From positions 3,100,001 through 3,164,000 of the forward strand of contig NZ_CP084090.1 of the NCBI RefSeq assembly GCF_020217425.1: a stretch of DNA of 64,000 bases. Reading direction: 5' to 3'. The notes below the pieces were generated by a model. That model was not told the DNA's origin. It did not search any database and saw only the letters and a list, made by a program, of their open reading frames with translations. Below, one piece after another: positions 1,330 to 34,273 of the stretch. Every line of letters starts with the position of its first letter. Position 1 is the stretch's first letter. The DNA comes from Halomicrobium urmianum (GTDB taxonomy: Archaea > Halobacteriota > Halobacteria > Halobacteriales > Haloarculaceae). The translations under genes and the position numbers were made by a program.

Positions 1330-1608
1330 ATGGTAGTATCCGTACTTCAGATCGGACTGCCGGGGACCCAGGAGATGATGATCATCCTCCTGATCGCGGT
1401 CCTCCTGTTCGGTGCAAACAAGATCCCCAAGCTCGCCCGGTCGACGGGTCAGGCAATGGGTGAATTCCAGAAGGGTCGCGAGGAAGTCGAGCAGGAGCTC
1501 GAGGAGATCAAGGACGGCGGCACCGGTTCCGGTAGTACCGCCTCCACCGACGACGTCGGTACGGACGTCGACGCCACGGAGTCGACCACCGAAACGACCG
1601 AGCGGTAA
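1330..1608 (+). CDS. tatA: Sec-independent protein translocase subunit TatA
   Basis: 92 residues with the TatA/Hcf106 plan: a short N-terminal membrane helix (MMIILLIAVLLFGANKIPKL, residues about 16-35), the FGxxKIPKLAR hinge, an amphipathic helix up to about residue 60, and an acidic Ser/Thr-rich tail. It forms the pore component of the twin-arginine pathway, which haloarchaea use for most secreted proteins. I chose the internal ATG at 1330 because the preceding TATA box sits 27 nt upstream; the longer open frame from 1042 overlaps the peroxiredoxin on the other strand. No tatC is near. Confidence 0.93.
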   Translation: MVVSVLQIGLPGTQEMMIILLIAVLLFGANKIPKLARSTGQAMGEFQKGREEVEQELEEIKDGGTGSGSTASTDDVGTDVDATESTTETTER

Positions 1609-1689
1609 TCCTTCCCCGGTTTTCCCACTCTTTCCCGACCGACAGTGGAACGCAAAGCGTTTTTCGCAGGCGCACGCTATCGGCCGGTA

Positions 1690-1762
1690 GGGCGTGTGGC
1701 CTAGCGGACAGGGCGAGGGGTTCCTAACCCCTCGATCGCGGGTTCGAATCCCGCCACGCCCG
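1690..1762 (+). tRNA. tRNA-Arg (anticodon CCT)
   Basis: A full cloverleaf can be drawn. Acceptor GGGCGTG (1690-1696) pairs perfectly with CACGCCC (1755-1761), with G at 1762 as discriminator. The anticodon stem AGGGG/CCCCT (1716-1720, 1728-1732) encloses the loop TTCCTAA with CCT at 1723-1725. The T-arm GCGGG-TTCGAAT-CCCGC spans 1738-1754. CCA is not encoded. It reads AGG codons. Its last 22 nt are repeated several times in the following 330 bp. Confidence 0.95.
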
Positions 1763-2091
1763 TGCAAGGAACCGACGAGCGTAGCGAGTCGGTGACTGAA
1801 CCGGAACGGGATTCGAACCCTGCCAGTCGCAGCGGCCGAGCGGAGCGAGGCCGACCGTCTGGCTCCGGTTCGAATCCCGCCACGCCCGTTTTCCGGCGAA
1901 CGAAGTGAGCCGTGAAAACGGCACGGTGGGATTCCGAAGCAGGGAGGTCGCGCGCAGCGTAGCAAGCACGTCCGACCGTGGTTCGAATCCCGCCACGCCC
2001 GCTTCGCGGTTCCTCACGTCCGTTCGGAACACGCTCGCGGGCGTGGCGACCCTCGCGAAGCCTGCGGCTTCGCTCAGTCCCGCCACGCCCG
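1763..2091 (+). repeat. Tandem remnants of the tRNA-Arg 3' end, separated by hairpins
   Basis: The last 22 nt of the tRNA (T-loop plus 3' acceptor strand, 1741-1762) recur perfectly at 1867-1888 and 1980-2001, and the last 14 nt (TCCCGCCACGCCCG) recur at 2078-2091. A degenerate T-arm-like copy may sit at 1808-1825, and an inverted GGGCGTGGCGA occurs near 2039. Copies are 90-126 bp apart. Between them lie hairpins with the loop GARCGNAGYGA: 1771-1793, 1834-1852, 1888-1919, a decayed one near 1951-1980, and another hairpin (GCGAAGCC-TGC-GGCTTCGC) at 2055-2073. This resembles a stack of attachment-site scars. From 2092 to 2279 I see no gene or strong structure. Confidence 0.85.
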
Positions 2092-2279
2092 TTCTGCGAC
2101 GCGCGGACGCGAGGACCGGACGAGACGGGGCATTCGAGTTCCTGATCGTGGAAACTTGACCTTTCGAGCACAGGCTGTGCGTTCACGTGGCTTCGGCGTG
2201 CCCGGTGAGTCCTGAACTCCAGCAACGCGGATTGGTGGAAGTGCGGCCTGTCGGTTCGTTTCGAGGAGATTGTGATCTC

Positions 2280-2585
2280 TCAGACAGTCTCGTTGTCCTC
2301 GCCAGTTTCGTTGCCCACTCCCACGTCCGTTTCGTTGTCCATTTCGGTCTCGTTGCCCGCTCCACCGTCCGGAGTCGCAGTCGTGTCGCCCTCGACGCCG
2401 AGCCCTTCGGTCGGCGTGCCCTCGCCGGTACGGGTGTCGTTTGCCTCGGGTTCCCCCGGTTCCTCGGCACCGCCGTCTTCGCCGTCTTCGCCCCCGCCGC
2501 CGTCGCCGCAACCGGCGAGCGCTCCGACGACTGCGACCGATCCGGCGCGCTTGATAAGGGAGCGTCTGTCGAGAGAATCTGTCAT
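2280..2585 (-). CDS. Short Tat-dependent lipoprotein, low-complexity, unknown function
   Basis: 101 residues. The N-terminus DRRSLIKRAGSVAVVGALAGC has a twin-arginine motif followed by a hydrophobic stretch and a lipobox ending in Cys near residue 26, so it should be exported by Tat and anchored by a lipid at the membrane. Everything after the Cys is Gly/Glu/Asn/Thr-rich and acidic, with several NET-type repeats (NETE, NETD, NETG, NETV) that are also potential N-glycosylation sequons. No folded domain is recognisable; it may be a surface spacer or a decayed remnant of a longer binding lipoprotein. Gap 2586-2830 upstream holds no gene I can support. Confidence 0.65.
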   Translation of the reverse strand: MTDSLDRRSLIKRAGSVAVVGALAGCGDGGGGEDGEDGGAEEPGEPEANDTRTGEGTPTEGLGVEGDTTATPDGGAGNETEMDNETDVGVGNETGEDNETV

Positions 2586-34168: not shown

Positions 34169-34273
34169 CCGCGCGAACGAAGTGAGCGCGGTTCTCCGGC
34201 CCGAGCGAAGCGAGGGCCGGCCTTTTTCGCCCACGTTTTTCGAGGAGTGGTTCGGGAGCGCAGCGACCGAACC
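34169..34273 (+). terminator. Three consecutive GARCGNAGYGA-loop hairpins after gyrA
   Basis: CCGCGC-GAACGAAGTGA-GCGCGG (34169-34191), CCGGCCC-GAGCGAAGCGA-GGGCCGG (34196-34220, followed by CCTTTTT) and GGTTCGG-GAGCGCAGCGA-CCGAACC (34249-34273). Stems differ completely, the 11-nt loop is nearly constant. T-runs follow the second hairpin (34223-34227, and 34236-34240 further on), so a role at the gyrA mRNA 3' end is likely. The convergent CBS gene ends at 34292. Confidence 0.7.

Follow-up and report, generated by a model that had tools for sequence, protein, structure and literature searches.

Hairpin units that carry a copy of the resident tRNA's 3′ end form a repeat family behind haloarchaeal tRNA genes

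Behind the tRNA-Arg(CCT) gene of Halomicrobium urmianum, copies of the end of the tRNA recur within a tandem array of structured units. We conclude with high confidence that the array belongs to a repeat family present throughout the Halobacteria, in which arrays turn over unit by unit. The units follow a common plan, alike at about 20 loci: first comes a hairpin (hairpin 1), then a stretch complementary to the tail of the tRNA (the antisense segment), a second hairpin (hairpin 2) and finally a copy of the tail. Pairing between the antisense segment and the tail copy locks the surplus tail into a long hairpin, after which a T-rich stretch usually follows; between zero and three such units stand in tandem behind a given tRNA gene.

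In the window, by which we mean the whole 64,000-nucleotide stretch of DNA that was analyzed, the tRNA gene occupies positions 1690–1762 of the plus strand (ARAGORN; Rfam RF00005, 67.2 bits), and its final 22 nt, GGTTCGAATCCCGCCACGCCCG, constitute tail D1 at 1741–1762. The first-pass annotation had reported direct repeats of this tail at 1867–1888 and 1980–2001 and of its last 14 nt at 2078–2091, with a hairpin in each interval. These matches are exact, all in direct orientation and spaced 90–126 nt apart, and the hairpins are real, the RNA folds of units 1, 2 and 3 being far stronger than those of shuffled sequence (z = −4.4, −3.5 and −5.4, respectively). Beyond that description, each hairpin includes an antisense segment paired with the tail copy of the same unit, which forms the foot of the large hairpin, and the pattern extends across the genome.

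The repeats delimit three units, all on the plus strand. Unit 1 (1763–1888, 126 nt) comprises hairpin 1 at 1767–1797, an antisense T-arm at 1807–1819, hairpin 2 at 1820–1866 and the complete tail copy D2 at 1867–1888 (22/22), with perfect 13-bp pairing between 1807–1819 and 1867–1879. Unit 2 (1889–2001, 113 nt) opens with a T-tract and hairpin 1 (1889–1918), continues through an antisense arm at about 1925–1938 and hairpin 2, and closes with tail copy D3 at 1980–2001 (22/22); it is 84% identical to the first unit 3′ of the same tRNA in genome G003. Unit 3 (2002–2091, 90 nt) is of a different type, in which hairpin 1 (2006–2034) precedes an arm complementary to the tail's acceptor part (2038–2048, pairing with 2081–2091), hairpin 2 and a partial tail copy at 2078–2091, corresponding to the final 14 nt of the tRNA, TCCCGCCACGCCCG. 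This type is also present in G001, G003, G005, G006 and G011, and the order of unit types behind tRNA-Arg(CCT) varies between species. The exact 22-nt tail occurs only three times in the host genome. An Rfam 15 scan of window positions 1600–2300 brought the tRNA alone, and none of the units, to the gathering score. A 120-aa open reading frame on the minus strand (1724–2086) runs antisense to the array, with VAGFEP- and AWRDSN-like motifs repeating at the tail copies, and is probably spurious.

We extended the comparison to the 4.25-Mb host genome (G000), fetching the DNA downstream of its tRNA matches, 50 in all, and testing 48. For 18 of the 48 tRNA genes, the gene's own 22-nt end recurs within 300 nt downstream with at most three mismatches, where swapped tails give an expectation of 0.02; an exact copy of the gene's own last 11 nt lies downstream of 15, again with 0.02 expected from swapped tails. 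Tail copies are specific to the tRNA behind which they stand. The antisense arm, which in most cases corresponds to 11–13 nt of the T-arm but in window unit 3 to the acceptor part, likewise follows the resident tRNA: where the T-loop has its variable position, antisense arm and tail agree in 92 aligned sequences and disagree in 9.

From 21 cores, each spanning the antisense arm, hairpin 2 and the T-arm, we derived a covariance model, R1. Paired cells make up 88.5% of its alignment as opposed to 79.3% when shuffled, and the structure holds 32 double-changed cells versus 11.3 in shuffles; shifting the partners by one column lowers the signal clearly. Given the small alignment and the relatedness of its sequences, this covariation is supportive rather than proof. 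Matches to R1 are present in 285 of 292 Halobacteria genomes, the exceptions being G031, G032, G036, G049, G081, G213 and G292, and a search of 162 other Halobacteriota genomes returned none. Of the best R1 loci across the class, 28 of the 29 examined immediately follow the 3′ end of a tRNA encoded on the same strand, and all except two of the 23 matches in the host genome fall inside an array behind a tRNA. In the window, units 1 and 2 match R1 at 1808–1878 (82.7 bits) and 1928–1991 (54.8 bits). The intervals of units 1 and 2, which the first-pass annotation had proposed to align, belong to a class-wide family and are not unrelated leftovers.

No Rfam family matches the units, and neither phage records nor two scans of viral contigs yielded a match. 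Plasmid records gave weak matches, mostly haloarchaeal, plus three Paraburkholderia plasmids. On a Paraburkholderia terrae plasmid (L184), the hairpin query matches 44 nt at a distance of about 1.1 kb from a gene for a site-specific integrase; this may be a bacterial attachment site whose T-arm sequence is similar. In Haloquadratum, partial duplications of tRNAs have been linked to prophages (PMC3119063). Our literature searches, for which subscription journals were mostly out of reach, returned nothing on these tRNA-tail arrays, and as far as we could find the family is new to the literature.

The hairpin-2 core has a wider distribution. Its pattern occurs in 101 stretches among 84,980 species genomes, all 80 of those listed being from Halobacteria, and of 82 matches only 15 have a tRNA within 700 nt. 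The tRNA-distant cores mostly belong to a larger, different repeat that is common in Halorubrum and Halorussus, so the hairpin-2 core is a module of at least two haloarchaeal repeat families. The larger dispersed repeat has GACTCAAAGGGGCAG ... GGCTGGGGCTTTGG ends and several nested hairpins (L272, L279, L290), is also present in the host genome (L149, G000:C2:193122), and gave no Rfam match in the six loci scanned.

Comparison of all tRNA loci between the sister species G001 and G003 reveals how the arrays change. At six tRNAs (Val, Gly, Arg, Phe, Ala and Tyr) the two genomes differ by one unit, and the empty site consists of a single tail joined straight to the downstream flank; whole units are thus present or absent with junctions exactly at the tails. 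Such precise empty sites are a hallmark of MITEs and transposons, but deletion between repeats would look identical, and the clean differences could be explained by losses through recombination between tails. No gain of a unit could be polarized with certainty in this comparison. The Met tRNA of G003 is followed by two identical 117-nt units in tandem. Among the 13 compared tRNAs at which either species has units, unit presence differs at 7 and is common to both at 6, and therefore no single array is indispensable. Arrays nevertheless favor the same tRNAs in the host genome as in G001 and G003 (odds ratio 7.8, p = 0.013). In orthologous units, tail copies have changed at 2 of 264 sites versus 27 of 563 in hairpin 1. 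Near-identical hairpin cores also stand behind different tRNAs, and the best shared stretches begin with the antisense arm and stop where the T-arm ends; the core, and not the whole unit, is therefore what different loci have in common.

These observations can be accommodated by an explanation that joins the repeat family and its turnover by recombination to a role in ending tRNA transcripts, and we give this explanation as a whole an even chance of being correct. Recombination or slippage between tail copies would lengthen and shorten arrays, and hairpin cores would spread among tRNA genes through their common T-arm sequence. In a read-through transcript the units may serve as structured 3′ trailers or fail-safe terminators, the antisense arm preventing surplus tail copies from misfolding the tRNA.

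The trailer or terminator role taken by itself is a tentative proposal, drawn from sequence features. Haloferax volcanii uses T stretches to end transcription, and also hairpins, which are less efficient (PMC7237163). The hairpins in the window are strong, and the tracts that come after tails are T-rich but often short. After later tails, the frequency of T is 0.38–0.67 at positions 1–5 versus 0.14 at positions 13–24, although TTTT lies within 10 nt in only 18% of cases and T-rich starts also occur after tRNAs without units. Counts of G-U versus A-C pairs weakly favor RNA of the tRNA strand, the G-U excess in the antisense arm being confounded by core type and absent in helix 2. A terminator role leaves the exactness of the acceptor part of the tail copy unexplained. 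We also considered that the tRNA might prime a retroelement and dropped the idea, the antisense arm usually covering the T-arm and not the acceptor end. As a separate observation, the strand-specific motif GAGCGNAGCGAG occurs at 8 sites in the window against 0.32 expected, including 11174, 11235, 34203 and 40816; near 34203, behind a reading frame, it forms a hairpin with TTTTT after it.

The tail of tRNA-Arg(CCT) is also a site of true integration. We sought the exact 22-mer in 391 haloarchaeal genomes, finding zero to three occurrences per genome and none when it was read backwards. Among the places listed, copies are 94–228 nt apart, except in G192 (15,161 nt) and G303 (17,140 nt), which belong to another genus. 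In these two genomes the element at tRNA-Arg(CCT) measures 15–17 kb, is bounded by the same 22 nt on both sides and has an integrase domain at a distance of about 0.46 kb from the far tail copy. The search for inserted elements suggested by the first-pass annotation therefore succeeded in two genomes, the remaining listed copies enclosing only short intervals, and its statement that archaeal integrases use tRNA 3′ ends is borne out by both. Identity between the copies starts exactly at GGTTC and runs 4–6 nt beyond the tRNA, and the complete tail copies of the window array have the same 22-nt extent as this repeat, as would those of an attachment-site scar. Beyond the far tail copy in G303 come a hairpin and an antisense arm. 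In the host genome, similarly, a 13.8-kb stretch with an integrase domain (G000:C1:520443-534333, L378) separates tRNA-Gly from a partial copy in which 55 nt are identical, with a hairpin array beyond. Because the array lies beyond the far end of real elements, integration splits the tRNA from its array and does not create it.

Other features of these elements are worth recording. Both (L376, G192:C1:1932400-1950399; L377, G303:C1:2661000-2680200) have a hairpin insertion of ∼53 nt exactly before the GGTTC of the far copy, and in G303 the sequence upstream of it resembles the anticodon arm of this tRNA. On contig G000:C4, integrase matches with identical scores recur at 962, 15039 and 29116, a spacing of 14,077 bases, and other integrase matches have counterparts at C1:3310843-3314414; the recurrence reflects a concatemer, a tandem element or an assembly artifact.

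The first-pass annotation had read the repeated tails as stacked scars of successive integrase-mediated insertions and deletions. Although the same tail flanks the elements in G192 and G303, we regard this as very improbable for the array, whose intervals are homologous structured units of one architecture, described by one covariance model and found behind many tRNAs class-wide. In addition, no cargo lies between the tail copies of the window locus in the host genome, the nearest integrase domain is about 92 kb away, and real integrations leave array sequence at their far end. Repeated use of the tail by a mechanism other than an integrase, which the annotation had offered as its alternative, fits better.

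The arrays might instead be a neutral by-product without function: slippage and unequal recombination would spread the tail duplications, and gene conversion together with quasi-palindrome-templated mutation would sharpen the palindromes. The high turnover of units between the sister species and the existence of decayed units agree with this view, and quasi-palindrome correction is able to mimic covariation. We consider it rather unlikely, given the hairpin-2 sequence common across the class, the near-universal presence of the family in Halobacteria (285/292) and the better conservation of tail copies than of hairpin 1. Selfish mobility would account for other features: a recombinase would move a folded single-stranded hairpin, made of antisense arm and tail in the manner of attC, into the double-stranded tRNA tail. 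The clean empty sites, the hairpin cores common to different tRNAs, the occurrence of the hairpin-2 core elsewhere and the 22-nt extent of the flanking tails, equal to that around integrated elements, are all as such cassettes would have them. However, shared segments stop inside the tail and not at unit borders, no clear gain event was polarized, no enzyme was identified and two core patterns are absent from viral contigs; we judge this account doubtful. We would likewise give little credence to a dedicated haloarchaeal system that adds hairpin units to tRNA genes, in which arm and tail would be fitted to the resident tRNA, either through template-directed copying or through a recombinase that works on a folded single strand, and in which the units would then regulate tRNA 3′-end formation. 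If it exists, it would be a tRNA-specific cassette system without known counterpart.

Under the explanation we prefer, structured trailers with unit-wise turnover, the arrays bear on how archaeal tRNA transcripts end and offer a natural system for the unit-by-unit turnover of a repeat that is obliged to match a changing partner. In the three haloarchaea examined in full, between one-quarter and two-fifths of tRNA genes are followed by hairpins that lock up copies of their own 3′ ends. The arrays account for repeated tRNA-like fragments and for odd open reading frames drawn through them, and they caution that a duplicated tRNA end alone is not proof of integration.

Integron attC sites are foldable, and their two arms rebuild a double-stranded target; the units bear a resemblance to them, and neither an integron integrase nor gene cassettes were seen with tRNA-tail units. 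The attL/attR duplications left by tRNA-targeting tyrosine integrases (reviewed in PMC8371274) likewise repeat a tRNA 3′ end in direct orientation, and the same 22 nt flank the G192 and G303 elements, but the arrays have no cargo or integrase between copies, and the intervals, about 70–200 nt long, are homologous from one tRNA to another and include an antisense counterpart of the tail. Like haloarchaeal terminators (PMC7237163), the units present a hairpin and then a T-rich tract downstream of a gene; they differ in their tandem occurrence and in a hairpin whose 3′ strand is the tRNA's own T-arm and acceptor strand. REP/BIME-type palindromic repeats are also short, structured, often tandem and present in many intergenic copies, whereas the units described here are tied to tRNA 3′ ends and hold a copy of the resident tRNA's end.
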